From Bacteroidales bacterium (GTDB lineage: Bacteria > Bacteroidota > Bacteroidia > Bacteroidales > UBA1556): a stretch of DNA of 37,535 nucleotides. Each line of letters opens with the position of its first letter. The stretch's first letter is position 1. This document shows positions 2,605-35,529 of this stretch, piece after piece. The stretch is taken from the NCBI GenBank assembly GCA_027064095.1, contig JAMOQI010000058.1, forward strand, positions 1-37,535, in the 5' to 3' direction. The translations under genes were made by a program, and so were the position numbers. The notes under the pieces are model-generated. The model saw nothing but the letters and a program-made list of their open reading frames with translations. It made no database searches and was not told where the DNA came from.

Positions 2605-4575
2605 TTAAAGTTTAAATATTTTATAAAATTCATCATCAACTTTTGTCTCCACAATTCCTTCTGCAGTTAAAATATCAAAATAAGATTTTACTTTACTAAC
2701 TAATTCATCACCTTCAACATAATTGAAATTAACGCGAGAAAGAAACTTCTCTACTCTATCAACAGGTTGACGCATCATATCATATGATAATTTTGCTGAA
2801 AGAAACCGATTTTCATTTACCCAGTCAATAGCATTTCTAAGTTCTTCTAAAACTATTTCCGATAGTTCCGGATTGTTCCTTACAAACTCACCTTTAAAGA
2901 CTATTCCTGCATTTGGAAATGAACCAAATCCCGGATTTATCTCATTCCATAATTTATTATAAGAAATCTCAGAAATAGGCTCTTTTCTATCTTCCATTAT
3001 TTTTACTGCATAACTAGCTTCTGGTTCGCGAAGAATAACAGTATCAGCTTTTCCGGTAACAAAATCTGAGTATATCTTCTCTGGTCGTCCAAAAGGTTTT
3101 CCATACGTAAAATGATAATCTTCTACATTTTCACCACTTGCTTTTAAGAGGTATTTTGTGATTTTAGCAGGAGGAGCTTCCTCAAATAATGGAGTGGCAA
3201 TATCATGTCCTTTTACATCTTTAAATTGTTCGGCTTTATAACCTCTGGCAAGCATAACAAAATTGTCCCAAACAAAAATTGCAGGAATCTTGACATCACT
3301 TTGTTGAAGTTTTGCTGATGTAATTAAAGCAGAGAAACTAATATCTGCTTTTCCATTTATTATCCACCCTAGATGCTTCTCTGTTTCTTCCCAGACTTTA
3401 AGCTCTTTAATATTAACAGATTTACGTATTTTCTCAGATTGAAGCAATCTCATAATAATAGGATATGCTACAGGAGTAGCAGATTGAATTACAACATCAG
3501 GTTTCTCAATATTCTCTTCACCTTCTAATTTCTCACTAACTTTTTTATGAAAATAAACCCAAATCTGAAATGGTCCTTTCTCTTCTGATACATAATCAAA
3601 GCCCATTTCTGAAAGCATATTTATAAGAGGAATAGGGTTAAATTTCTGAATTAAAATAAAACCATCATCTTCAGCGGTATCATAAGCTTTCTTTAGAATA
3701 ATATCGAAAGGATCGCTTTGCATAGATCTGACATCTAAAATCTCAAATTGCTCTTTTCTTTCTTCCCAATTTTGTACTTTAACTTCTTCTTTATCATTAT
3801 AAATTGACAAACGATACTCTCTTCCTTTTTCAATATTAAACTTAAGGCCTAAACCTTGTGCCACTTTAGCAATAATACCAGGTTCTTCCACAGATAAAAT
3901 AACAATATTCTCTCCTTTAACCAAATTAGATACACGTTCTATCAAATCATCACGGCTACTATCATTTAAAATATATCGTTCAGATGATTCTTTCCAATTA
4001 ATTTCTTCTCCTTCCGGTAATACATCATCTATTTTGGTATTAATACACTCAGGCATTACTTTAATCAGTTCTTCTTCTAATCCTAAATATGCATTCATAC
4101 TATGAAGTATTTCGCAAACTGAAACACCAGTAATTTTTGCAGCATCTTTAAATGTTGCAAAACGAGCCAGAGTTTTATATAAAACAGGATTCTGCATCTT
4201 TCTAAATTTAGGAGAAATAGATATTAGAACATCTTTCAATTCCTCGTGTTTATCAAGAACTTCCTTAATATTACTACTTGCTAAGATTGGCTGCCCTATG
4301 CTTTTCTTTTTACCAAAAACATCTTCCACAATAGATGCTGTGTCAATTTTAATATTTGACTCTTCATTCTCAGTTTCATTTGGTGAAGAATGAATAATAG
4401 CACCAACAGGACATACTTCTAATGCACTTTCGCATTCATCAGCCTCAGCTTCAGTCTTAGGTTGTAATTTCACAAAAGCTTTATCAGAATCATTCATTGC
4501 AAAATGTTTCTCACTTACCTCAACACATGCTCTGCAGTTGATGCATTCATCTGTTACTTTATATTTTGTTATCAT
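2605..4575 (-). CDS. Ferredoxin-DUF1858-DUF2249-substrate-binding-fold fusion protein
   Basis: A 656-residue protein of four parts. Residues 1-61 form a ferredoxin-like domain for one [4Fe-4S] cluster (C11, C14, C17 and C55 before Pro; extra C48). Residues about 92-170 match DUF1858 (KFRKMQNPVLYKTLARFATF, then AAKITGVS). Residues about 275-345 match DUF2249 (LDVRSMQSDPFDIIL, then NPIPLINMLSEMGF). From about 357 to the end is a fold of the NMT1/SsuA-like periplasmic-binding type (SATPVAYPIIMRLL, GKADISF, PPAKITKYLLKASG, GKADTVILREPEASYA). There is no signal peptide or membrane segment, so it should be cytoplasmic, unusual for a binding-protein fold. DUF1858 and DUF2249 occur elsewhere near hemerythrin and NO-stress genes (general knowledge). 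It lies 29 bp after the PepSY gene, in one operon, divergent from the regulator and norB. The ligand and reaction are unknown; electron transfer, NO/Fe-S repair or small-molecule sensing are all possible. Confidence 0.8.
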   Translation of the reverse strand: MITKYKVTDECINCRACVEVSEKHFAMNDSDKAFVKLQPKTEAEADECESALEVCPVGAIIHSSPNETENEESNIKIDTASIVEDVFGKKKSIGQPILASSNIKEVLDKHEELKDVLISISPKFRKMQNPVLYKTLARFATFKDAAKITGVSVCEILHSMNAYLGLEEELIKVMPECINTKIDDVLPEGEEINWKESSERYILNDSSRDDLIERVSNLVKGENIVILSVEEPGIIAKVAQGLGLKFNIEKGREYRLSIYNDKEEVKVQNWEERKEQFEILDVRSMQSDPFDIILKKAYDTAEDDGFILIQKFNPIPLINMLSEMGFDYVSEEKGPFQIWVYFHKKVSEKLEGEENIEKPDVVIQSATPVAYPIIMRLLQSEKIRKSVNIKELKVWEETEKHLGWIINGKADISFSALITSAKLQQSDVKIPAIFVWDNFVMLARGYKAEQFKDVKGHDIATPLFEEAPPAKITKYLLKASGENVEDYHFTYGKPFGRPEKIYSDFVTGKADTVILREPEASYAVKIMEDRKEPISEISYNKLWNEINPGFGSFPNAGIVFKGEFVRNNPELSEIVLEELRNAIDWVNENRFLSAKLSYDMMRQPVDRVEKFLSRVNFNYVEGDELVSKVKSYFDILTAEGIVETKVDDEFYKIFKL

Positions 4576-4604
4576 AATTATATAGTTTTATAAATCATTA
4601 AATA

Positions 4605-6119
4605 TCAGTATTTAACTCCACGATAAGTCTTCCACCACACCCATGTACCAGAAATAAGAATAAATAAAATTCCAAATCCGGATAGTGGAATAATAAGAAC
4701 ATAAAAACTTCCAAGTAGAAATTCAAATATTCTACCCGTATGCACTTCTAATCCTAAATTCCATAACGACATACGATATGTATTTGCTATTTTTGCCGGC
4801 ATAAATATGGATTCTCCCCCATTGATATTAAAAGCCCCTTTATCGTAATCAAAGACTATCTCATTATCTTTAAAATCTGTAGTATAGCCAGTAACCAAAT
4901 AATCTCCAATAGGAGGACCCATTTTCTCGGGTTTTTTCCAAGGCTCTTTTTTAATATAATCTATAACAGTATTTTTGGAAGGATTCCATTCAAATAAACC
5001 TTCAAAAGAACCAACCAAATAAGTATCTGATGACTGTTTCCTAAAAACATTTACTCCCATTATAGAAGCTGGAGGTTGAAATTTAAATCTCTTTAATGAA
5101 TCATTAAAATTAGTATCAGAATAATAAAATCCATCTAAAGTAGATACCAAAAAGCGTTCTTTTTGTTCATCATAAAGTATTCTTCGCAATTTATCAAACC
5201 AAGGATTTGGAGTATCTAATTCACTCCCCGGGAACTTAGAAACTTTGGCATTAGCCACGGTAATAATAAGAGGAGGTCGCAAAAACATACCTGTTGCAGT
5301 AGTAATTATAAGGAGGATTACGGTTGTCCAGCCAATTTTATTATGCCATTTTAGATTCCAAATATTAACAGCTTTAGTTTTAGCAAAAGGCTTCTTATTA
5401 ATTGCTTTTTTAATAATTCTTTTCTTATTAATAAAAATAACAACTCCTGTAATAGTAAGAAAAATAAATATTAGACCAACAATATCCACAATAAACTTCC
5501 CTATACTTCCATAAATTTCTCCACTATGAATTACCCATAGGGTTTTAAATAGTCCAATCTTATTATCATAATTCTCTGGCGCAGGAAGTTCCATAACTTT
5601 AAAATCTGCTAAATTTTTATTAGCAATAATAAGGTGAGACCTACTAAGAATATATATTTTATTATCTTTTTGAATAAGATCCACAATACGTTTTTCTGAA
5701 GTCGGTATTAAAACCTTATTCCATTTACTCTCTTTATAATTATACTCATATAATCCGAAAAAAGTAGCAGCAATAAGTTTTTGTTCGCTAGTCAATAATA
5801 ATGTGCTTATTTTTTTATTGTCGATACCTTGTGGAAAACCATTATTAAAATCAGTAAAACCAATAAAATTGGAATCAGTGAGCCAAACCCCCATATTACC
5901 ATATATAAGAATTGAATCAGAACTAAGCTTTAAAGTGGATTTTACTGCTGCATTATTCCAATTTTTAATACTATACTCATTTGGCAAATAATTTCTACTG
6001 ATATCAAAATTAGACAAGGCCTTTCTGTGATTTAATAAAATACCAGAAATAGAAAATAGTATAATAATAAACGCCAGTATTATACTTAACCATTTATGAT
6101 ATTTCTTTAAAAATTCCAT
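4605..6119 (-). CDS. PepSY-associated transmembrane protein
   Basis: A 504-residue membrane protein. The start (MEFLKKYHKWLSIILAFIII, then SGILLNHR) is the standard opening of PepSY_TM proteins. Further membrane segments lie near residues 205-232 (IVGLIFIFLTITGVVIF), 260-280 (IGWTTVILLIITTATGMF), and at the C-terminus (LIIPLSGFGILFILISGTWVWW). Between them are two extracytoplasmic stretches with propeller-like strands (LLLTSEQKLIAATFFGLYEY; FLVSTLDGFYY; YLVGSFEGLFEW). PepSY_TM proteins include ferric-siderophore and flavin-linked reductases, but I see no heme or flavin motif that settles a reaction here. It is the first gene of the leftward pair, divergent from the Rrf2 regulator with a 286-bp gap, which suggests a role in the NO or iron response. 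The ATG at 6117-6119 is preceded by a promoter-like box about 27 bp upstream. Confidence 0.8.
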   Translation of the reverse strand: MEFLKKYHKWLSIILAFIIILFSISGILLNHRKALSNFDISRNYLPNEYSIKNWNNAAVKSTLKLSSDSILIYGNMGVWLTDSNFIGFTDFNNGFPQGIDNKKISTLLLTSEQKLIAATFFGLYEYNYKESKWNKVLIPTSEKRIVDLIQKDNKIYILSRSHLIIANKNLADFKVMELPAPENYDNKIGLFKTLWVIHSGEIYGSIGKFIVDIVGLIFIFLTITGVVIFINKKRIIKKAINKKPFAKTKAVNIWNLKWHNKIGWTTVILLIITTATGMFLRPPLIITVANAKVSKFPGSELDTPNPWFDKLRRILYDEQKERFLVSTLDGFYYSDTNFNDSLKRFKFQPPASIMGVNVFRKQSSDTYLVGSFEGLFEWNPSKNTVIDYIKKEPWKKPEKMGPPIGDYLVTGYTTDFKDNEIVFDYDKGAFNINGGESIFMPAKIANTYRMSLWNLGLEVHTGRIFEFLLGSFYVLIIPLSGFGILFILISGTWVWWKTYRGVKY

Positions 6120-6145
6120 TATATTATAATATTTAAAATACGATG

Positions 6146-6153
6146 CAAATGTA
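6146..6153 (-). promoter_or_regulatory. Predicted -7 box for the PepSY operon
   Basis: CAAATGTA on the plus strand reads TACATTTG on the minus strand, matching the Bacteroidota -7 consensus TAnnTTTG. It would give a leader of roughly 20 nt before the ATG at 6119. The -33 element is not clear (nearest TTG about 25 bp away). Confidence 0.5.
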
Positions 6154-6248
6154 GTATTAAAAAATTATAATAGAATAACAACATCTAGGTATTTTAAGTT
6201 TTTCTATTAAATAAATCACTAATTTATTCGAAGTTAAAACAAAAATAT

Positions 6249-6256
6249 TATCTTTG
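6249..6256 (+). promoter_or_regulatory. Predicted -7 box for the Rrf2 regulator
   Basis: TATCTTTG matches TAnnTTTG. The -33 element is poor (TTCG about 19 bp upstream). The leader to the ATG at 6406 would be about 140 nt, long for this window, so regulation in the leader or a second promoter is possible. Confidence 0.4.
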
Positions 6257-6405
6257 TCGCATATTACTACACAGGTATGGTATTTTATTATTTGTTATGA
6301 AACGAGCACGACAAAAATACTTATTAATCCTCCTCTCTATTGGCAGGCAGATAAATAAATAATTATTTTTTTCATGCGAACATATGGCGTTAAATCTATA
6401 AACAT

Positions 6406-6819
6406 ATGAAACTTTCAAAAACTTCAGAATATGCATTAAGGGTACTGGCATATATGATTAACTCTGATATGCAAGTATTCAAAGCAAAGGATTTGGTTGA
6501 GACATTAAATGTTCCAAATAAATACTTGAGAAGATTAATGACAGATATGTCGAAATATGGTTTTATAAAGAGTTTACAAGGTAGAGAAGGTGGTTATGTT
6601 TTTGCCAAAAATGCTGACAAAATATTTCTAATTGAGGTTATAGATGCGGTGGAAGGTATTGATAAATACCAAGGTTGTATAATGGGACATCAAAGTTGTA
6701 GTGAAGAAAACCCATGTAGTCTTCATAAGTCATACGCTCCTATAAGAGATTTAGAAATGGAATATTTTAGAAAAACAAGCATCAAGGAATTGAAAGATAA
6801 AAACATTCATAAATTTTAA
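6406..6819 (+). CDS. Rrf2-family Fe-S transcriptional regulator, NsrR/IscR-like
   Basis: A 137-residue winged-helix regulator. The opening MKLSKTSEYALRVLAYM is the Rrf2 signature; the recognition region (VPNKYLRRLMTDMSKYGFI) and wing (SLQGREGGYVFAKN) follow. Three Cys near residues 88-101 (GCIMGHQSCSEENPC) are placed as the [Fe-S] ligands of NsrR and IscR, although the spacing is C-x6-C-x5-C and not the usual C-x5-C-x5-C. The gene lies 98 bp upstream of norB in the same direction and divergent from the PepSY pair, which supports an NO-sensing, NsrR-type role, probably repressing norB and perhaps the divergent operon. I leave the symbol blank because Rrf2 members with other ligands (iron, redox) cannot be excluded. 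Confidence 0.88.
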   Translation: MKLSKTSEYALRVLAYMINSDMQVFKAKDLVETLNVPNKYLRRLMTDMSKYGFIKSLQGREGGYVFAKNADKIFLIEVIDAVEGIDKYQGCIMGHQSCSEENPCSLHKSYAPIRDLEMEYFRKTSIKELKDKNIHKF

Positions 6820-6854
6820 TTATTCATCAATAAGGAACTAATAAAAATTTTTTA

Positions 6855-6879
6855 TATCTTTATCATCTACTTAAAGATA
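6855..6879. promoter_or_regulatory. Inverted repeat in front of norB, possible operator
   Basis: TATCTTTA (6855-6862) and TAAAGATA (6872-6879) form a perfect 8-bp inverted repeat with a 9-bp spacer, 39 bp before the norB ATG. The left arm is one base from the TAnnTTTG -7 box, so a protein bound here would block polymerase. A role as the Rrf2 binding site is inference. Confidence 0.45.
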
Positions 6880-6917
6880 GTGTTTAAACAATTATTTTTT
6901 TAACTAAATATTAAATT

Positions 6918-9158
6918 ATGAAACAAACATTACTAGACAAATTTATGAGCAAAAAAGGACTCTATACGAGTTTTTGGTTCATAGCTATTATTATGGTAGC
7001 GGCTTTGATTTATTTCACAGCCAATCTACAAAAGGAAGTTCCACCTATTGCAAAAGAAGTAAAATCACAATCAGGAGAAGTGCTTTACACTTACGATGAC
7101 GTAGTAGAAGGTAAGGGATACTTCCAAGAGTTTGACCTTATGGATTGGGGAACATTGTTAGGAATGGGTGCCTATATGGGTCCAGATTTCTCCACTGATT
7201 TTTTCCATCACCGTGCAGAATTTCTTTACGATTACTATGCTAAAGAAATGTTTGGCAAGCCAAATAAAGACTTGACAAATATTGAAAGAGGAGCTGTAAA
7301 AGAAAGAGTAAAGAAAGATTTTCATGAACAAACAAAGCTTTTAGAAGCAGGTGTAACTTATACCGATGCTTCTGCTTTAGCTTATCATGCAAACGTAAAA
7401 GCACTAACAAAATTACTAGTAGAAGGAGATCCCGAAAGAGCATTTCCAGGAGGTGTCATTCATGAAAATGAAGCAATAAAAATTGCTGCATTTGTAGATT
7501 GGTCACAAATGGTAGCTTCTTCTATTCGTCCTGGTACTGAAGGTAAAGTTGGAGAAGAGCGTACATGGTCAAATAACTGGCCTAAAGAACCATTAGTTGA
7601 TCAAGATACATCATATAATAATCATATAGTATCACTATGGGAATTCTTACTATTATGGGCTTTAACTATTCTTGTCATATTTCTTAGCTATGAATATTTA
7701 TTTAAAAAAGATAAAGGAGAAGAATTGGCTCCAGTGTTAAAAGTTACTAAACTTTTTAAATCACAAAAGAAACTTTTAAAATATATCCCTATCGTATCCT
7801 TACTATTTGTTGTACAGATGTTTTTGGGTGGATATATAGCACACTTATACGCTGATCCAACACAAGATTTTATTTTTCCACAAAGCATATTACCATTTAA
7901 CGTATTACGTTCTATTCATACACAGTTAGCTATATTATGGGTAGCAGTAGGTTGGTTAGTTGGTGGTTTATTAATTGCACCTTGGGTTGCTAATAAAGAC
8001 CACAAATTCCCATGGTTAGTAGATGTACTTTGGTTAGCATTAGTAACAGTTGCAGTTGGCTCTGTAATAGGACTTTATATGGGAGCAACAGGACAAATGC
8101 GTGATACATGGTTCTGGTTAGGAAACGAAGGTAGAGAATTACTAAACCTAGGTAGAGTATGGGATATTGGTCTTCTAATAGGCCTAGTATTTTGGTTCTT
8201 ACTTGTCGTATCTCTTATTAAAAAATCAGCCACAAATAACCCTCTTGTAGGAACAATTATTTGGTCTGCTTTTGGTATTGCCACTTTATATATTGCAGGG
8301 ATGATGCCTATTCATAAAATTATGCCTAACTTTACTGTTGATGATTATTATCGTTGGTGGGTAATTCATTTATGGGTAGAATTAACATTCGAACTATTTG
8401 CAGCTGGGGTAATAGCATTTATGACTGTTTCTTTAGGATTGATATCTCAGAAAACAGCAGAAAGAGTTATGTTTTTCGAGCTATTTTTAATAATGATGTC
8501 AGGAACATTAGGTGTAGGCCACCATTACTTCTGGCAAGGATTGGATGAATACTGGATTGCGATAGGAGGTATTTTCTCTGCACTTGAACCACTACCACTA
8601 GCATTAATGATAGTAGAAGCATGGAAAAATCACCGTGAACAAAAAGCTGAGGGTGTTACCAACAAATTTAGTACTCCATTCATGTGGATTACCGGTTCTG
8701 CTGTTCTTAACTGGATAGGTGCCGGATTCTTTGGTATGGTAATAAATACTCCAACAATTTCTTATTATTCTCACGGTACATATTTAATTATGCCTCACGC
8801 TCACACAGCCTTATTAGGAGCCTTTGGATATATTTCTATCGCATTCCTATATATGACTTCTCGTGCAAATGCTATGGCTAATGGCTGGGAATGGAATGAT
8901 AAATTAAGTAAATTTGGTTTCTGGTCCCTAACTATAGGAGTTCTTTTATTTGCTCTTCCTACTTTAATGATAGGTTTAGAACAAACAAAAATTGCTGCCG
9001 AAATGGGTTATTATTATACTCGTATTCATTCAGCACTAGAAATTGTTAAAAGCTGGATGTGGTTCCGTATTATACCAGATACTCTAATGCTTATTGGAGG
9101 AGTTACTGTCTTTATCGATCTAACAAAGAAAACATTCTTTGGAAAAAAAGCAGCATAA
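6918..9158 (+). CDS. norB: Quinol-dependent nitric oxide reductase (qNOR)
   Basis: A 746-residue membrane protein of the heme-copper oxidase superfamily that reduces two NO to N2O using quinol. The qNOR layout is visible: one N-terminal helix (about 15-36), a roughly 200-residue periplasmic domain, then some 13 helices. Metal ligands are all in place: H334 (low-spin heme b, SIHTQLAILW), H484 and E488 (HLWVE, FeB His and the nearby Glu), H535-H536 (GVGHHYFWQG, FeB), H627 and H629 (MPHAHT, the two hemes). There is no CxxCH heme c site and I see no Cys at all, which fits the single-subunit quinol form and not cNOR, which needs NorC. The gene follows the Rrf2 regulator by 98 bp, with an inverted repeat in its leader, and ends in a strong terminator. 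Its role is NO detoxification or respiration in the inner membrane. Confidence 0.96.
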   Translation: MKQTLLDKFMSKKGLYTSFWFIAIIMVAALIYFTANLQKEVPPIAKEVKSQSGEVLYTYDDVVEGKGYFQEFDLMDWGTLLGMGAYMGPDFSTDFFHHRAEFLYDYYAKEMFGKPNKDLTNIERGAVKERVKKDFHEQTKLLEAGVTYTDASALAYHANVKALTKLLVEGDPERAFPGGVIHENEAIKIAAFVDWSQMVASSIRPGTEGKVGEERTWSNNWPKEPLVDQDTSYNNHIVSLWEFLLLWALTILVIFLSYEYLFKKDKGEELAPVLKVTKLFKSQKKLLKYIPIVSLLFVVQMFLGGYIAHLYADPTQDFIFPQSILPFNVLRSIHTQLAILWVAVGWLVGGLLIAPWVANKDHKFPWLVDVLWLALVTVAVGSVIGLYMGATGQMRDTWFWLGNEGRELLNLGRVWDIGLLIGLVFWFLLVVSLIKKSATNNPLVGTIIWSAFGIATLYIAGMMPIHKIMPNFTVDDYYRWWVIHLWVELTFELFAAGVIAFMTVSLGLISQKTAERVMFFELFLIMMSGTLGVGHHYFWQGLDEYWIAIGGIFSALEPLPLALMIVEAWKNHREQKAEGVTNKFSTPFMWITGSAVLNWIGAGFFGMVINTPTISYYSHGTYLIMPHAHTALLGAFGYISIAFLYMTSRANAMANGWEWNDKLSKFGFWSLTIGVLLFALPTLMIGLEQTKIAAEMGYYYTRIHSALEIVKSWMWFRIIPDTLMLIGGVTVFIDLTKKTFFGKKAA

Positions 9159-27180: not shown

Positions 27181-30100
27181 CTATCTCAAAAGTGTAACGG
27201 CTCCAGTATATTTTCTTTTTACATTTTTATTATCTGTTATATATAAAGCATAACTATATACATCAGGTTTGCATTCATCTCCTTTTATATCATCAACTCC
27301 CGTCCATGAGCTATAATAATCTTTGGAATGATATACACAACGTCCCCACCGGTTATAGATAAAGATTTCGAATTCTTCTATTCCCTCTTCTGAGAACAGT
27401 GGTCTAAATGTTTCATTGAGACCATCACCATTAGGAGTAAAAGCCATTGGAACAAATATTTTAGGGCCACTTTCTATATCTATTATTGCTGTAGCTGTAT
27501 CATAACAATTATAATCATTACCAACTATTAAACTAGAATGGAAAATTCCCTCCCCTAAATATATATGATAAGGATTACTTTCGTTGCTAATATTATATAT
27601 TCCACTAGCTGATTCTCCAAAATCCCATACTAAATTAGTGTAGTTTTTTGAATAATTATAGAAATTAACAACAGGATGATTGGGATCTGGTTTATTTGTA
27701 TTTACTCTAAAATTAGCATAAGGCTTAGGTAATACTTCCACAAAAGATTTTTTTGTTAAACTCGATGAACATCCAGCAAAAGTTGTTAATTCTAAATTTA
27801 CATCATATGTCCCGGGAACTGAATATACATACGATGGACATTGAAGGTGAGATGTATCGTTATGAGAAAGTGGGTCTCCAAAATTCCACTTATAACTCAT
27901 CATTCCAAAGTTATTATTAATAAAACTAACAGCTGTAGAGTCACAATTATGTTTATTTTTAAGCTCAAAATCAACTATAGGTAACGGGTTCACTTTAACA
28001 TAAACACTATCAGGAAAGGAAGCACAAGCAAAATCTTCAACATATAATTTTACTTTATATTCTCCTGCTTGTGTCCATTTTAGACTTACAGGCCCCATTC
28101 CTCCACCATTAACTATTGGTGAGCCTTCATAACTCCAATGATATATTCCATTACTAGTTGCATTACCATAATAATTTGCTTTAGTAATTTCGTCTTGACA
28201 TATAAAAGTATCTACCAATATATCGCATACCGGCCTCTGATTTACTACAATATAACTTGAGTCATATCCTATACAACCATTTGTATCAGTACCTATTACA
28301 CTAAAGTTTGTACTACTTAATGGCGAGACAATAATAGAGCTTGTTGTTTGCCCGCTATTCCATAGTATATCAGAGAGAGGAATATTTGAACTTACATTTA
28401 ATCCAACTGTATCGTAGGTACATATAATGCTATCAGTACTTGTAATATTTATGATAGGTAAAGGTGCCACCAATACATTTGCTAATGTAGTATTTGAACA
28501 AGAGTTTGTATCAGTTACAGTGACTGTATATGTTGAAGTAGATGTTGGATTAACCATAATGATATCAGAACTATCTCCGGTACTCCATTGAAATTGATTC
28601 ACTGAAGAACTAGAAACAACCTCTAAAATTGCTGTATCTCCTTTACATAGTATCGGTGGAATTATTCCAATTGAAACAAATGGTAAAGGATGTACTGTAA
28701 GATGAACAGTATCTATCTTAATACAAGTATTTGAATCTATTACCATTGCAACATAATCAGTATCTGATGATGGCGCTACTTTAATATGATTAACAGTATC
28801 CCCAACTCCCCATAAATAATTCAAATTGCTATTATTGCTCACTATACTCAAAATAATTGAATCACCATTACAAATCTCTGGATTAGAGGGGACGAATGAA
28901 AACTGAGGAGCTGGGTTAACTGTCACAAATATGGAGTCAAAATTCGAACATCCAATTGTATCAATAGCAGTTAATGAATATAGCATAGAATTTTGCGGAA
29001 AATCTATGATGTAAGAATTATTTGAGCCATTATTCCATTGAAAAGTCAAACTACTATCGCTGTAAACAGCGTTGAGCATTACACTATCATTAGCACATAT
29101 ATTCTTTGAATTATAATTTATAGCTATATTAGGTAAAGCTTGTACATAAATATTTGAATATACTGTATCGCTACAAGAATTAGAATCTTGTACAATCAGA
29201 GAATATATTTGACTTGAGTTTGGATTATCAATAATAGATTGGGAATGAGCGCCTGTTGACCAAGTATATGATAAATTACTGTCACCTATACCAAACAAGC
29301 TTACTGTATCCCCTTGACATATCTTAGTATCAATTGCATTTATTGCAACACTTGGTCTATTATAAACTGTAAACTGTATATTAGTACTATCTTTACAACC
29401 TAACGGAGACAATGCTATAAGTTTAAAATTATTTATTGTGTCTATTAGCGCGCGATAAATATTAGAAGTATCACCATTTTGCCACAAATAAGTAGCTGAT
29501 ATATTCGAACAGCTTGCAACTAAAACAACACTATCTCCTTGGCAGTATTTGTTTTTGTTTGTAGAAATTGTTAAAATAGGCTTTTGTTCTACAATTATCT
29601 TAATACTATCAGTTTTTGCGCAACCATCAGTACTAACACCAGTAACATTATAATATCCTGACACTTGAGGCTTATAATATACAGTGTCTTGCAATGCATT
29701 AGCTAAATATGGTGAAGGATACCATATATAATTATTTGCACCTATGGCATTTACCTCCACAGAATCTCCTTTACATATAATAGTTGAATCAAAATTATAA
29801 TAACTAATTGGCTCTCGTTTCACATCGCATCTTAGTATCGTATCATTTACACATCCTAAGCTATCAATAGCCGAAAGATTGTAAAAAGTATTTGCAATAG
29901 GAAATAATCTCGCATCATTGTTATTAATAACATTTAAATACGGAGAGCCATTCCAATTGTAGGTATTATTACCATTAATATGTATAAACAAAGTATCATG
30001 CGGACAAATAGCTAAATGACTAGGTGTAATATTAAAAGTAGGTAAAGCATAAGCTGTTACATAAACATCTGCGGTATCTCTACACATATTTAAATCATAC

Positions 30101-33100
30101 CCGACAACCTTATACTTTTTTGATATAGTATGAGAAACTTTTAATAATGGATTTGTTGAATTAATATTTGGACTTAACCATTTATAAGTATTTCCACCAC
30201 TGGCAACTAATTGTATGGAATCACCATAGCAAACTCCAGTACTACTACTTGTAAGGCTTATTGGTGGACTATTATACATTGATACAAAAACCGAATCAGA
30301 AGAAATACAAGAATTAGAACTTAATGCTACTACTTTATACCAAGAATTTTGATTAGGTACAGCATATACAACAGAGTCATTTGCATTTATAACTCCATTT
30401 CCCTGCCAAGTAAAACTTGCTCCATTTATAGCTTTAAGCAAAGCAGTATCACCATGGCATATTTGAGGAGTTAAAGCTTGAGCTACCACCGATGAATCCT
30501 TATGAACTACAACATTTACTTGGCTCTCTTTAGAACAACCGGAACCGTATGTTATTGTAACTTTATAATTGGTGCTCTGTAATGGAGAAACAACTAAATT
30601 AGAACTTGTATCTCCAGTGCTCCAATAATATGAATAGACTTGATTTTGAGTTATAGACTTAAGTTCCACACTATCTCCGTAACAAATATGCGGGTTTGTT
30701 GGAATTATAGTTGCTGGCGACCAAGTTACAAAGTCTGCAAATGCTGTATCTTTACATCCATTAGAATCAACTCCAACAACCATATAAGTCATGTTTGTAT
30801 TTGGGAATACAGTAACAGAATCTCCTTGATTAGATGATATTCCTATATTCGGATACCAATAATAATTAGCAGCACCACTAGAAATCAATAATTGTTGACT
30901 ACCAGAACATATATGGCTAAAATTTGGACTCACGCTAACATTAGGTTTAGGATATGTACCTATTGATATAGAAGCTGTATCCTTGCACCCGAGTAGGGTT
31001 TTCCCAACTACGTGATAAGTATTAGGCACATACTGATTTACATTAATGTCATTACCATGTAATACCAGATTACTAGAGTCCGAACTCCAAGTATATAAAA
31101 CAGCGCCACTTGCCTGTAAGCTTACAATATCACCGACACATACAGAACTTTTATCAGACACAACACTTATTATTGGGTTTGGTTCCACTTCAATAAATAT
31201 GGAAGTATCATTAACACAACCATTGGAATTGGTTGATAATAAATGCACTATTGTGCTTTGGGTTGGAATAATAAATATATTAGAATTTACATCACCATTA
31301 CTCCATAAATAAGATACATTATTTGTATTAGAATACGCACTTAACACAACCGTATCCCCTTCACATACTCTTTTTCTTGAACTACTAATAACACTTATTG
31401 GCGAAACTTCAACATTAGTGAATGCTGTATCTGAGCATCCATAATCTGTTTTCCCTATAATTCGATAATTAATTGAAGTATCGGGTTTACATATTACGCT
31501 ATTTCCTTTGTTTGTATCTAGATAAACATCTGGATACCAATTATAAGTAGAAGCACCAATGGCTGTAAGAATAACAGAGTCATTTGGACAGACTTGTGTA
31601 TTGGTAGGATTAATATTTATGTTCGGATATGCATGGACTCCTATTTGGGTGAGAGCGCTATCCTTACAACCATTTAAATTGGTACCTACTACTGTATATA
31701 TCGTTGTTGTGGTTGGACTTACCTTTATTGTTGCATTTGTATTAGAGTTTAATCCTGTATTTGGATACCAGTAATAATACTTAGCTCCCGAAGCTGTAAT
31801 TTCTGCACTATCGCCAATACAAATATGCTGCATTTTATCGCTAACAGTAACTTTCGGTGATTGTCTTACTTGAACTTTTGCAGATAAAGTATCAGAACAA
31901 CCATATGCATTAAATCCTACTACCTTATATTGTATTGTAGTATTAGGCTTTGCAATAACTGAACTTGCAGTACTATCATTAAGAAATTTTCCCGGTAACC
32001 ATTTATATGTTGAAGCCCCCGTGCTACTAATACTTATACTATCTCCTTGACAGATGTCAAAATAATTATTGGAAATATGTATTGCAGCATTAGGTACTAC
32101 TTGTACCTGAATATAAATACTGTCAATGCACCCAAAATTATCCTCTCCTATCAATTGATAAGTAGTAGAAACAGGTGTAGATGTGGTCACCAAACTACCA
32201 GTAGTTCTATCTAAGTAATTAGATGGAGACCACGTATAATATTTAGCTCCGTAGGCTCTTATTTTGGCACTTCCTCCTTTACACACATATACAGGATAAG
32301 GATTTACCATAAGACTGGGTTTACTATAAACAGTTACTGTAATACTCTTATTATTAGTGTATCCAAGATTGTCTGTTACAGTAACAGTATAAGTTGTTGT
32401 TGCATTTGGTTTTACCCATATTCCATTTGTAACTTCTCCCGTATTCCATTGATAATTACATAATACATTGGTTACAGCATCCAGATATGTTGAATCACCT
32501 AAACAAATAGCTCTACGTGATGTAACTATTTTAAGTTGTGGACGTGGATTTACAATTGCTGTATCGTAATTTACACAGCCATTAGCATCTGTTCCTTTAA
32601 TAAAAAAATGGGTTAGTGTATCCGTAGCTGCTGTGAAATAATTAGCTCCGGCCTGTAATATTACGTCTGTTGGGCCCCATAAATAACTTACCCCTCCTGT
32701 TACATTAATATTAAAAGGAGCCATAGGCTGCACTTCTGAATAGTCTGGATAAACAACTATATTTGGTAATGGATTTACAATAATATTTGCACTACTACTA
32801 GCTACAACATTGCAACCATTGGTGTCGTTGCCTATTAATTTAACAATAGTACTTGAACTTGGTGTAATCCTAATAGTATCGATAAGGTTTGAATATGTCA
32901 CTCCTTGAAAATCCCACCAATAATTATCTAAGACCTCGATATTATCACAATATACTTCTGCGGTATCTCCGTAGCAAATAGATTGAGTAGAAGGATATAA
33001 ATTAAAAGTTGGAGGAGAAAATGTATTTATGGTTACACTGTCGGAACGCTGACAACCTAAAGTATCTGTTACTGTCACAACTACCTGTGTTGGCTCAAGA

Positions 33101-35529
33101 ATAGTATAGTCTGTAAAATCACTATTATCTCCATTATTCCAAATATAATTTTGAGAATTTGAATTTGTACTAATGCTCACCATTGCATTTGAACCTTGAC
33201 AAACTATACTATCTATAAGTTTTATTTTGAACTCCGGATAAACATGTACTATTGCATCAATTGTATCGCTACATCCAAACACATCAACTCCTACAACAGA
33301 TACCGTTGTTGTGTTTGATGGCTTAAAATAAATACTGTTTGTATTGTTTGCTAGTATATTTCCATTATGAATCCAATAATAATAATCCGTTCCTGATGCA
33401 TGCAATTTTATTGAATCTCCATAACAAACACCTGATGTATTAGGAAGTTTTATGTTAACATTTGGTTTATTATACACTTCCAGATGTATAGAATCTGTAT
33501 TAGAACATCCTTGAATATTGGTTCCTTTTACATAATAGTCCATACTATTTGAAGGGCTTACATTTATTGATGTACCGCTGTACTGACTATTATTTTGATT
33601 TGACCACCATTGATAATTTATTGCACCACTTGCAGTTAAAGTAGCTGTCATATTTGCACAAATAGTATCATAACTACTTTGAATACTTATTTGTGGTAAT
33701 TGATCTACTAATATTGTCAACTCTATACTATCAACACATGAATAGCTATCGATTCCTTTAACCCAAAAACTATCTGTTTGGTTAGTAAATATATTTACAT
33801 CGCTATAGTTTTGATTATGAGATATAATATCATTATTATTCCATATATATTGACTAGCACCGCTTAAAACAAAATTAGCAGTATCTCCTTCACAAATTGT
33901 ATTTAATGTAGAACTAGATATCAAATTCATAGGTGCATATACTGTAAGATTTTTGGTTGCAGTAGATGTACATCCAAATTGATTTTCTCCAACTACTTTT
34001 ACCAAAGTACTATTGTTTAAAGGAATTAATAAACTATCATTTTGATAATTTTGCACAATCACATTATTCTTATACCAAGTATAATTATTAGCCCCAATAG
34101 CTTTTACTATTGAAGTTTGTCCTTTGCATACACTATCGATAGAAGCTATTAATATTATATTTGGAATTGGATTTACTTCTATATGTTTAGTAGTATTTAT
34201 TGAAAATCCACAACCATCGATTACCATTAAGCTAAGGTTTGTATCTTGTTGTGCTACAAAACCTACATTATTAGAATTCCAACTTAAGTTATATGGTTGT
34301 ATTCCTCCAGAAATAATAGCTGATTGATTAACTTGCTCCTGCTGACAGTAAATCGAATCTCCAAAAATTGATGCAGACAAGGAATTATAATCGCTTAATA
34401 TAAAATTGACAGTATCATTAGTGCATCCAGAAATTGGAATAATACAATTCAAAGTTTCGTCTCCTTCTGCTATATTATCAAGAATAGGAGTAATATATAA
34501 CCTAACGCTATCTGTACCTGCTGGTATGTAAATGCTGTCAGGCAAATTATTTACATCAATACCATTTTGTACTGTACCGGAATAAGAAATAGGAATATAA
34601 TAATCAAAAGATAAAGGACTTGATAAAATAAAATCAATAGCTGCGCTATCACATCCTTCATTAATAATATTGCTCTGAGAGTTATTAAACATAATAACAT
34701 TAGTCCGTAAACCTAAAGAAGAAAAACTATTTGCCTCAAGAAACACACCTGAATCGTAAGAGTGATCTGCACCATCACCTATAGCAATCTTAATATGATA
34801 AGTTTGACATGGAACAACCTTTATTTTAGCAAGCATAACAGTTGTTAAACCATCAAGTTGTATTGTAGTACCTCCTGTATTATCAATATAATAATTACAA
34901 TTTGTACAAGGTCCTAAATTATTAATTCCGTTATTTATAGTATTGGTAGAAATAGGAGTGCTAGTACCTGGTATTAAGGCAATATTTTCATTAATATATT
35001 GACCACCTAGTGGATTTGTACCTGTTATAAAAAAGCCAAAAACATCATTATAATTTGAACCCACCCATTCCGCATATTCTTCAGATCCAAAAACAAATCT
35101 AAACATTACGCTATCAGTTGTTGGAACGAAATCAAATTCTAAAACAGCAGCATCATAAATACTGCTTAAAGGTGTAAGAGCTTGTAATTGTGGATCGCCT
35201 CCTCCTTGAGTGTTATACTGTTTATTTGGAACAGTATTGCTTGATGCTAAATCTGTCACTTTGCCTGTTGACAATACTATCCCTGATGAAAGCCCAAGCA
35301 CACTTGGACCTCCTTGAGAAAAACTTCCTAATGACAAGCTGGAGCCTGTGTAACTAACGTTACTTACAGATACACCATTCCCTAAAAGTACGTTCTCCAC
35401 CAAACTTTGTGGTGTAGATCCGTTTTGAACGACAAATTGTGAATACGAAATTCCAGGATGTAAAATGAGCAATGTTAACACCAAAAATACGAAAACACAC
35501 TTTGCCATTTTCTTATTCTGTGTTTTCAT
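27181..35529 (-). CDS. Giant secreted adhesin-like protein: anchor L domain, about 26 Ig-like repeats, PKD domains, type B T9SS sorting domain
   Basis: A 2782-residue protein. The signal peptide ends SYS with Gln at +1 (QFVVQ). Domains in order: a choice-of-anchor L domain (about 36-280; SSGIVLSTGKV, FVFGSEEYAEWVGSNYNDVFGF), a Calx-beta-like domain (about 290-385; PAGTDSVRLYITPILDN, EGDET), a transitional Cys-containing domain, about 26 Ig-like repeats of roughly 76 residues (about 460-2440), three PKD-like domains (about 2440-2690; WNFGDPLSH, WDFGES) and a gliding-motility type C-terminal domain (FVPMAFTPNGDGLNETFRP, FIYNRWGRCVY, YSYALYITD). The C-terminus is the type B sorting signal for T9SS. 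Such long stalks usually serve attachment or cell-cell contact. No enzyme domain is present. No PorP/SprF-like gene, the usual partner of type B cargo, is adjacent. It ends at its own terminator and appears monocistronic. Confidence 0.93.
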   Translation of the reverse strand: MKTQNKKMAKCVFVFLVLTLLILHPGISYSQFVVQNGSTPQSLVENVLLGNGVSVSNVSYTGSSLSLGSFSQGGPSVLGLSSGIVLSTGKVTDLASSNTVPNKQYNTQGGGDPQLQALTPLSSIYDAAVLEFDFVPTTDSVMFRFVFGSEEYAEWVGSNYNDVFGFFITGTNPLGGQYINENIALIPGTSTPISTNTINNGINNLGPCTNCNYYIDNTGGTTIQLDGLTTVMLAKIKVVPCQTYHIKIAIGDGADHSYDSGVFLEANSFSSLGLRTNVIMFNNSQSNIINEGCDSAAIDFILSSPLSFDYYIPISYSGTVQNGIDVNNLPDSIYIPAGTDSVRLYITPILDNIAEGDETLNCIIPISGCTNDTVNFILSDYNSLSASIFGDSIYCQQEQVNQSAIISGGIQPYNLSWNSNNVGFVAQQDTNLSLMVIDGCGFSINTTKHIEVNPIPNIILIASIDSVCKGQTSIVKAIGANNYTWYKNNVIVQNYQNDSLLIPLNNSTLVKVVGENQFGCTSTATKNLTVYAPMNLISSSTLNTICEGDTANFVLSGASQYIWNNNDIISHNQNYSDVNIFTNQTDSFWVKGIDSYSCVDSIELTILVDQLPQISIQSSYDTICANMTATLTASGAINYQWWSNQNNSQYSGTSINVSPSNSMDYYVKGTNIQGCSNTDSIHLEVYNKPNVNIKLPNTSGVCYGDSIKLHASGTDYYYWIHNGNILANNTNSIYFKPSNTTTVSVVGVDVFGCSDTIDAIVHVYPEFKIKLIDSIVCQGSNAMVSISTNSNSQNYIWNNGDNSDFTDYTILEPTQVVVTVTDTLGCQRSDSVTINTFSPPTFNLYPSTQSICYGDTAEVYCDNIEVLDNYWWDFQGVTYSNLIDTIRITPSSSTIVKLIGNDTNGCNVVASSSANIIVNPLPNIVVYPDYSEVQPMAPFNINVTGGVSYLWGPTDVILQAGANYFTAATDTLTHFFIKGTDANGCVNYDTAIVNPRPQLKIVTSRRAICLGDSTYLDAVTNVLCNYQWNTGEVTNGIWVKPNATTTYTVTVTDNLGYTNNKSITVTVYSKPSLMVNPYPVYVCKGGSAKIRAYGAKYYTWSPSNYLDRTTGSLVTTSTPVSTTYQLIGEDNFGCIDSIYIQVQVVPNAAIHISNNYFDICQGDSISISSTGASTYKWLPGKFLNDSTASSVIAKPNTTIQYKVVGFNAYGCSDTLSAKVQVRQSPKVTVSDKMQHICIGDSAEITASGAKYYYWYPNTGLNSNTNATIKVSPTTTTIYTVVGTNLNGCKDSALTQIGVHAYPNININPTNTQVCPNDSVILTAIGASTYNWYPDVYLDTNKGNSVICKPDTSINYRIIGKTDYGCSDTAFTNVEVSPISVISSSRKRVCEGDTVVLSAYSNTNNVSYLWSNGDVNSNIFIIPTQSTIVHLLSTNSNGCVNDTSIFIEVEPNPIISVVSDKSSVCVGDIVSLQASGAVLYTWSSDSSNLVLHGNDINVNQYVPNTYHVVGKTLLGCKDTASISIGTYPKPNVSVSPNFSHICSGSQQLLISSGAANYYWYPNIGISSNQGDSVTVFPNTNMTYMVVGVDSNGCKDTAFADFVTWSPATIIPTNPHICYGDSVELKSITQNQVYSYYWSTGDTSSNLVVSPLQSTNYKVTITYGSGCSKESQVNVVVHKDSSVVAQALTPQICHGDTALLKAINGASFTWQGNGVINANDSVVYAVPNQNSWYKVVALSSNSCISSDSVFVSMYNSPPISLTSSSTGVCYGDSIQLVASGGNTYKWLSPNINSTNPLLKVSHTISKKYKVVGYDLNMCRDTADVYVTAYALPTFNITPSHLAICPHDTLFIHINGNNTYNWNGSPYLNVINNNDARLFPIANTFYNLSAIDSLGCVNDTILRCDVKREPISYYNFDSTIICKGDSVEVNAIGANNYIWYPSPYLANALQDTVYYKPQVSGYYNVTGVSTDGCAKTDSIKIIVEQKPILTISTNKNKYCQGDSVVLVASCSNISATYLWQNGDTSNIYRALIDTINNFKLIALSPLGCKDSTNIQFTVYNRPSVAINAIDTKICQGDTVSLFGIGDSNLSYTWSTGAHSQSIIDNPNSSQIYSLIVQDSNSCSDTVYSNIYVQALPNIAINYNSKNICANDSVMLNAVYSDSSLTFQWNNGSNNSYIIDFPQNSMLYSLTAIDTIGCSNFDSIFVTVNPAPQFSFVPSNPEICNGDSIILSIVSNNSNLNYLWGVGDTVNHIKVAPSSDTDYVAMVIDSNTCIKIDTVHLTVHPLPFVSIGIIPPILCKGDTAILEVVSSSSVNQFQWSTGDSSDIIMVNPTSTSTYTVTVTDTNSCSNTTLANVLVAPLPIINITSTDSIICTYDTVGLNVSSNIPLSDILWNSGQTTSSIIVSPLSSTNFSVIGTDTNGCIGYDSSYIVVNQRPVCDILVDTFICQDEITKANYYGNATSNGIYHWSYEGSPIVNGGGMGPVSLKWTQAGEYKVKLYVEDFACASFPDSVYVKVNPLPIVDFELKNKHNCDSTAVSFINNNFGMMSYKWNFGDPLSHNDTSHLQCPSYVYSVPGTYDVNLELTTFAGCSSSLTKKSFVEVLPKPYANFRVNTNKPDPNHPVVNFYNYSKNYTNLVWDFGESASGIYNISNESNPYHIYLGEGIFHSSLIVGNDYNCYDTATAIIDIESGPKIFVPMAFTPNGDGLNETFRPLFSEEGIEEFEIFIYNRWGRCVYHSKDYYSSWTGVDDIKGDECKPDVYSYALYITDNKNVKRKYTGAVTLLR
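28216..34150 (-). repeat. Coding tandem repeats: about 26 Ig-like units of ~228 bp
   Basis: Counting by hand, 26 successive units share the core C-x-G-D-(S/T) near the start, an aromatic-x-W about 15 residues later, Y-x-V-x-G/T before a second Cys in an N/D-x-x-G-C-x-D context. The two Cys are about 50-55 residues apart, as for an intradomain disulfide. At DNA level the units are clearly diverged, with no long identical stretches noticed, so the array is old or under selection for protein sequence. Confidence 0.85.

Follow-up and report, generated by a model that had tools for sequence, protein, structure and literature searches.

Why do two genes of unknown function stand back to back with a nitric oxide (NO) reductase gene and an Rrf2 regulator gene in a Bacteroidales bacterium, and do they take part in the NO response? 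The question is raised by contig JAMOQI010000058.1 of assembly GCA_027064095.1, which was analysed over its full 37,535 nucleotides (the window in the following). An earlier note, made from the letters of the DNA alone, had described at positions 2605-9158 a three-cysteine Rrf2 protein next to a co-directional quinol-type nitric oxide reductase (qNOR, norB) and, divergent from them, a PepSY membrane protein followed by a fusion of ferredoxin, DUF1858, DUF2249 and binding-fold parts, abbreviated here as FUS. All four open reading frames (ORFs) proved to be complete and placed as described, two on each side of a central 286-bp gap: Rrf2 and then qNOR to the right on the plus strand, and the PepSY_TM gene and then FUS, 29 nt apart, to the left on the minus strand. 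Our analysis indicates that the pair very probably belongs to an Rrf2/NO module. As the most likely mechanism we favour, with moderate confidence, a single NO-defence module of all four genes, governed by the Rrf2 protein, in which ferredoxin feeds a haem relay across the membrane. The genes and putative operators are the following.

2605..4575, minus strand: FUS, 656 aa, cytosolic-type fusion, model without membrane helix
4605..6119, minus strand: PepSY_TM-type membrane protein, 504 aa, 4 transmembrane helices (Pfam, AlphaFold, Foldseek, FoxB alignment)
6135..6160, TTAATACTACATTTGCATCGTATTTT on the minus strand: putative operator for Rrf2 in the promoter of PepSY-FUS, its end 15 bp upstream of the PepSY start
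6261..6286, no strand assigned: putative Rrf2 operator in the Rrf2/norB promoter
6406..6819, plus strand: Rrf2 regulator (Pfam Rrf2, E 9e-27)
6918..9158, plus strand: qNOR, norB (PF22085 and COX1; 3ayf)

Gene linkage and predicted operators

In order to see how constant this arrangement is, 80 FUS loci of GTDB genomes were mapped (labelled by L-numbers), and the 12 loci with PepSY beside FUS, window included, were taken as the pair set. Ten of the 12 adjoin NorB, Rrf2 or DUF438-hemerythrin genes; the exceptions are L048, whose contig starts 208 bp before the gene, and L071, which has a broken PepSY gene and unrelated neighbours. The complete divergent four-gene set recurs in the same-genus loci L043 and L044. 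The other orders are Rrf2-NorB (L045, L047, L111) or Rrf2-DUF438 (L046) followed by PepSY and FUS as one ORF, Rrf2-NorB-FUS-PepSY (L090), NorB-FUS-PepSY at a contig start (L092) and NorB-PepSY-FUS (L066), where the PepSY and FUS genes lie end to end or overlap. Single PepSY-FUS ORFs of 1143-1164 aa were found in five assemblies (L045, L046, L047, L048, L111); an internal Met persists at the junction, which fits the loss of a stop codon. The module thus recurs in several bacterial lineages.

An operator matrix was trained on 15 Rrf2-upstream sites, from which the window and its close relatives L043 and L044 were excluded. Upstream of Rrf2 these 15 loci carry the palindrome TAAATACTACA-N4-TGTAGTATTTA (22.6 bits). 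The best position of the matrix in the whole window was 6135-6160 in the PepSY promoter (15.8 bits, 0.04 expected per window), and the second best was 6261-6286 (0.16 expected per window); both predicted sites are retained in L043 and L044. With the best match in the PepSY promoter and the second before Rrf2, the Rrf2 operator is probably common to both sides of the divergent arrangement, and we consider PepSY-FUS to be probably under Rrf2 control. The palindrome also occurs at several norB genes elsewhere (L114, L111, L047, L045). A genome-wide count of the mismatch pattern was uninformative, with 83 sites at 3 or fewer mismatches and 165 for the reversed-pattern control; the window site is among only three genome sites with 2 mismatches. 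A third match at 33203-33228 lies inside a large ORF and was taken as chance.

Linkage, the five fusion assemblies and the best window operator in the pair's own promoter support the earlier proposal that the pair is part of the NO response. That the pair and norB/Rrf2 are neighbours by chance, with no functional link, would have nothing in its favour beyond the wide range of FUS contexts; it is contradicted by the repeated linkage in many lineages, the fusions and the shared operator, and we reject it as extremely improbable.

The two partners were also looked at separately, and the expectation that homologues would be found near norB or Rrf2 was borne out for the pair in every intact, sufficiently flanked locus, while FUS alone is mostly found elsewhere. 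PepSY without FUS occurs in Rrf2-NorB-(DUF438)-PepSY operons of Bacteroidales (L211-L217), and in L218, L219 and L221 with Ric/ScdA, hemerythrin, NorB and Rrf2 genes. Among the FUS genes without PepSY, those of L070, L072, L098, L100, L103, L108, L114 and L115 are NO-linked, and the one of L038 adjoins Hcp and a CRP/FNR regulator. Altogether 17/80 GTDB loci have NO-linked FUS, which is a lower bound because of contig ends. In the FUS tree, 11 changes are required to account for the NO-linked rows, and well-supported branches force at least 7 of these; NO-linked FUS is clustered on the tree and does not form one clade. The predicted co-occurrence with norB was found over 393 genomes of the order for both FUS (odds ratio 4.9, p 6e-5) and PepSY (odds ratio 3.5, p 1e-5), and where PepSY and NorB share a contig they are at most 4 kb apart in 13/14 cases.

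Several results weigh against a uniform NO module. The co-occurrence tests ignore phylogeny, and FUS and PepSY themselves co-occur weakly (odds ratio 2.1, p 0.06). In the window, norB itself lacks a strong operator. Ahead of the fused PepSY-FUS gene of L045, L046, L047 and L111, which sits downstream of norB or DUF438, no Rrf2 operator was found; another palindrome (AATCTAAATAAAGATT) precedes this gene in L045, L047 and L111, so that control is not uniform. Finally, most FUS homologues, in anaerobes, have no NO neighbours, which suggests a wider job for FUS.

The last point bears on the main alternative for FUS, namely that it serves anaerobes generally as a cytosolic factor for redox reactions or ligand sensing and has been co-opted in this locus for a repair or sensing task in the cytosol, with no electrons passing through PepSY. 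This reading agrees with the lack of NO genes at most FUS loci, which often hold MinD/Nitro_FeMo-Co islands or FAD oxidoreductases instead, and with DUF1858-DUF2249-DUF2249 proteins like DrpB, which act in nitrate signalling (PMC6282519). A shared function is indicated by the five single-ORF PepSY-FUS fusions and by the closely spaced pairs of other lineages, and we hold a purely general role to be possible but doubtful.

Further observations concern the FUS loci and the promoters. The islands mentioned combine FUS with MinD-type P-loop proteins bearing ferredoxin motifs and with Nitro_FeMo-Co (orange-protein-like) genes (L049, L051, L052, L058, L060, L061, L064, L067, L081, L082, L101, L109); their FUS proteins fall largely in one part of the tree, which suggests a second FUS context. 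In L108 (6821-9514) and L115 (6816-9473), Rrf2, a 182-aa subunit-II-like protein and a COX1-family protein of 538-543 aa stand ahead of FUS; the last is not qNOR, and a different haem-copper-type enzyme thus takes the place of norB. Bins with FUS are named Bacteroidota, Chlorobiota, Spirochaetota, Thermotogota, Bacillota and others (L062, L104 and L119 among them); they come mostly from sulphidic or vent metagenomes, and some are possibly misassigned. This spread over phylum-level bins of anaerobes suggests gene transfer among them. In L119 (Marinitoga lauensis, an isolate genome) the FUS homologue is in two ORFs of 253 and 374 aa, through a frameshift or sequencing error. A conserved palindrome, TTAATCTAAATAAAGATTATTTTTG, unlike the Rrf2 operator, lies by a Bacteroidota-type promoter box upstream of the fused gene in L045, L047, L048 and L111. 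In the window about 119 bp (6287-6405) separate the Rrf2 operator from the Rrf2 start, compared with 0-6 bp in L043 and L044.

The regulator and the NO reductase

The three cysteines of the Rrf2 protein are C91, C98 and C104 (C-X6-C-X5-C), conserved among the Rrf2 proteins of the cluster, and E83 precedes the first of them by 8 residues, a position that holds Glu or Asp in nearly all of these proteins. In the NsrR of S. coelicolor the cluster ligands include a fourth one, E85, likewise 8 residues ahead of the first Cys (PMC4432287). The window protein missed the NCBIfam NsrR equivalog cut-off (41 bits vs 182), and its scores were alike for SUF regulator, IscR, RirA and NsrR, all far under the cut-offs. 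The NsrR operator consensus gATGyAT-N5-ATrCATc (PMC1274295) was not matched, as this group uses AATACTAC-N6-GTAGTATT. Since both the score and the operator deviate, we call the regulator NsrR-like and not NsrR; judged by its sequence, it is a probable candidate NO sensor.

The same undecided scores and the departure from the NsrR consensus would also suit an IscR-like regulator that senses iron-sulphur status or iron, in which case the cluster would answer general iron-sulphur damage and not NO itself. The regulator is linked to NO genes (norB, Ric, hemerythrin, DUF438), no isc or suf gene was recognised beside them, and E83 stands where NsrR has its fourth ligand; these facts make an IscR-like sensor quite improbable.

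The qNOR matches the solved structure 3ayf over its full length (E 3e-132) with the His/Glu ligand motifs aligned and no difference of note, and it has the fused cytochrome-c-like (PF22085) and COX1 domains with the NOR ligands. The host, an anaerobic-type member of the order Bacteroidales, has a genome of 2.13 Mb that is 86% complete, with the window on contig 58. A search for NirK, NosZ, NrfA and Hcp gave none in this 86% complete genome, so NorB serves more likely for detoxification than for respiration; a role in denitrification is disfavoured, with 14% of the genome missing.

Elsewhere in this genome, contig 78 (L039, 8546-11043) holds a second possible nitrogen-oxide cluster, in the order of a DrpB-like DUF1858-DUF2249 protein (268 aa), a weakly COX1-like membrane protein of 440 aa and a DUF59-type protein. 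In the window itself, an ORF of 2782 aa (27181-35529, minus strand) with repeated Ig-like units and a gliding-motility-like C-terminal end is probably a large secreted surface protein.

The PepSY_TM protein, FUS and the proposed relay

The name PepSY membrane protein, given in the earlier note, is right for the membrane part, which matches the PepSY_TM profile (E 7e-21, 75.8 bits against a cut-off of 28.8) as do 27/27 homologues. The periplasmic PepSY domains are absent from the window protein, and a periplasmic beta-propeller is present instead. In the AlphaFold model (predicted local distance difference test, pLDDT, 87.7; predicted template modelling score, pTM, 0.85) four long helices are seen, and according to the model and Foldseek the propeller is built jointly from two inserts, in the loops of helices 1-2 and 3-4, which replace the PepSY domains. 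Five histidines, H8, H31, H198, H259 and H460, are invariant in all 27 homologues. With the larger PepSY alignment FoxB (7abw) aligned weakly (E 0.024) at the first transmembrane helix (TM1), where H8 falls on a FoxB His, and at the IHxGxIxGLxG motif of H198. The PDB sequence search with the first, smaller alignment returned propellers alone and no FoxB, and the top 50 of the structure search of the model were propellers, FoxB not among them. From the lysine-rich loops, both termini and the middle loop are predicted to be cytosolic; H8 and H259 would thus lie on the cytosolic side, and H31, H198 and H460 on the periplasmic one. Judging from the helix ends, His pairs for haem may be formed on both membrane faces.

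The composition of FUS claimed earlier was borne out by Pfam, Foldseek and the homologue matches. Its domains, all on the minus strand, are as follows.

4396..4554: single [4Fe-4S] ferredoxin domain, residues 8-60 (Pfam Fer4_13, conservation)
4108..4278: DUF1858 domain, residues 100-156 (Pfam, 2fi0, conservation)
3550..3738: DUF2249 domain, residues 280-342 (Pfam, AlphaFold secondary structure)
2608..3504: NMT1/THI5/SsuA-type substrate-binding fold, residues 358-656 (Foldseek, NMT1 matches, alignment)

The ferredoxin (Fer4_13, E 1e-13) has the pattern C11-x2-C14-x2-C17...C55-P, kept by every homologue with a ferredoxin part, and its closest solved sequences are Desulfovibrio ferredoxin I and II. 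DUF1858 was matched with E 4.5e-13; C154 within it, H158 and C177 just past it, and H401 are invariant in 44/44 homologues. The DUF2249 match of the window protein (E 1e-6, 28.7 bits) is slightly below the Pfam cut-off of 29.5 bits, and all 44 homologues match this family, the best with 7e-15. Residues 200-260 form a further alpha/beta segment in the AlphaFold model (mean pLDDT 86). The C-terminal 300 residues resemble Thi5 (4esx/4h6d), SsuA (2x26) and 3hn0 in Foldseek, with a template modelling score of about 0.6-0.77 of target and 12-19% identity; in sequence there is a weak SsuA match in the window protein and an NMT1/THI5 match in 24/44 homologues. This fold carries highly conserved motifs, and no cysteine is found in residues 178-656. 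Since it lies behind the ferredoxin and lacks an export signal of its own, the binding fold should work in the cytosol. In the fusions the ferredoxin comes straight after the predicted cytosolic end of the PepSY part, which would place it in the cytosol as well. PepSY and FUS were modelled separately because fused, PepSY-only and FUS-only proteins did not align correctly when taken together.

We propose that NO, which we infer to be the signal, attacks the iron-sulphur cluster of the NsrR-like Rrf2 repressor, whereby both divergent promoters would open. The qNOR would convert NO to N2O with quinol electrons, and the pair would make up a second branch, in which the [4Fe-4S] ferredoxin domain of FUS takes up low-potential electrons from the cytosol and hands them on to two b-haems of the PepSY_TM protein, the loading of which we likewise infer. 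The haem of the cytosolic side may be held by H8/H259 and that of the periplasmic side by two of H31/H198/H460; the electrons would presumably end at an acceptor bound to the beta-propeller in the periplasm, both this acceptor and the direction of flow being presumptive. The DUF1858/DUF2249/binding-fold part probably docks, gates or senses. The scheme draws on gene linkage, the shared predicted operator, the ferredoxin and His ligands and the natural fusions, which the sequence supports; electron transfer across the membrane by the pair is suggested by structure.

For the PepSY protein the main alternative is a metal reductase that, like CrpH, provides iron or copper in reduced form for the assembly or repair of the haem-copper-type enzyme NorB, with FUS as donor or accessory; the module would then be a support system of NorB and not a second branch. 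CrpH of Bordetella is a PepSY_TM protein with a similar His set that assists haem-copper oxidoreductases, known PepSY_TM enzymes act as ferrisiderophore reductases (PMC13038864), and PepSY tracks NorB with or without FUS. However, CrpH orthologues co-occur far more with oxidases than with genes of nitrogen-oxide respiration (PMC13038864), PepSY domains are absent from the window protein, and in L218 and L221 PepSY is nearest to Ric/hemerythrin, not to norB. We therefore judge a NorB support role unlikely and retain the relay as the second branch.

Going further, we tentatively suggest a new class of NO-inducible relay, from ferredoxin through a PepSY_TM/beta-propeller protein with two haems, with a binding-protein domain in the cytosol as its gate; what it reduces outside the cytosol would be NO itself or a target derived from NO or damaged by it. 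If true, it would be a second route of NO detoxification or repair beside qNOR and would show what type of donor feeds PepSY_TM reductases.

Comparison with known systems

The earlier note knew of no described system with this four-gene composition, and no description was found in the open literature searched, nor was such an NO regulon found described there for anaerobic Bacteroidota. The analysis links two families of unknown function, FUS and the PepSY_TM beta-propeller protein, to an NO regulon of this group whose operator is predicted. The NsrR regulons of NO detoxification consist of an Rrf2 repressor with norB, hmp, dnrN/ytfE and hcp. The window locus is like them in its three-Cys Rrf2 with an acid at the fourth-ligand position beside an NO reductase, and related clusters hold DUF438/hemerythrin and Ric genes. 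It differs in the Cys spacing (X6/X5, against X5/X5 in NsrR), in the operator and in the two new members.

The overall fold of FUS residues 358-656 is that of Thi5/NMT1 and SsuA/TauA; unlike these, it is fused behind a ferredoxin. Thi5 (HMP-P synthase) has a Cys-rich iron motif, which is absent from FUS since its binding domain has no Cys. In independent literature, nitrogen-oxide regulons have been connected with DUF1858, DUF2249 and a PepSY protein: DrpB of Thermus thermophilus consists of DUF1858 and two DUF2249 (PMC6282519), all four DUF2249 genes of H. mediterranei are induced under denitrification (PMC11218638), and the NnrR of Bradyrhizobium has a DUF1858 gene and a PepSY gene under its control (PMC6710368). 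FUS shares with DrpB and such denitrifier proteins the order of DUF1858 and then DUF2249-type domains and, probably, expression with nitrogen-oxide genes; to the DrpB plan it adds a ferredoxin at the N-terminus and a substrate-binding fold at the C-terminus.

With FoxB (7abw) and CrpH the window protein has in common the PepSY_TM profile, His residues at helix ends on both faces and a large periplasmic part. It is unlike both in having a beta-propeller in place of PepSY domains and an NO context, not one of siderophores or copper. FoxB is reported to have two haems, each on two His, and its electron donor is stated to be unknown (PMC13038864, PMC11334425). In contrast to FoxB, the ferredoxin gene here adjoins the PepSY_TM gene or is fused to it; the natural fusion thus names a candidate electron donor for at least this PepSY_TM subfamily, and makes the donor question testable with one protein.

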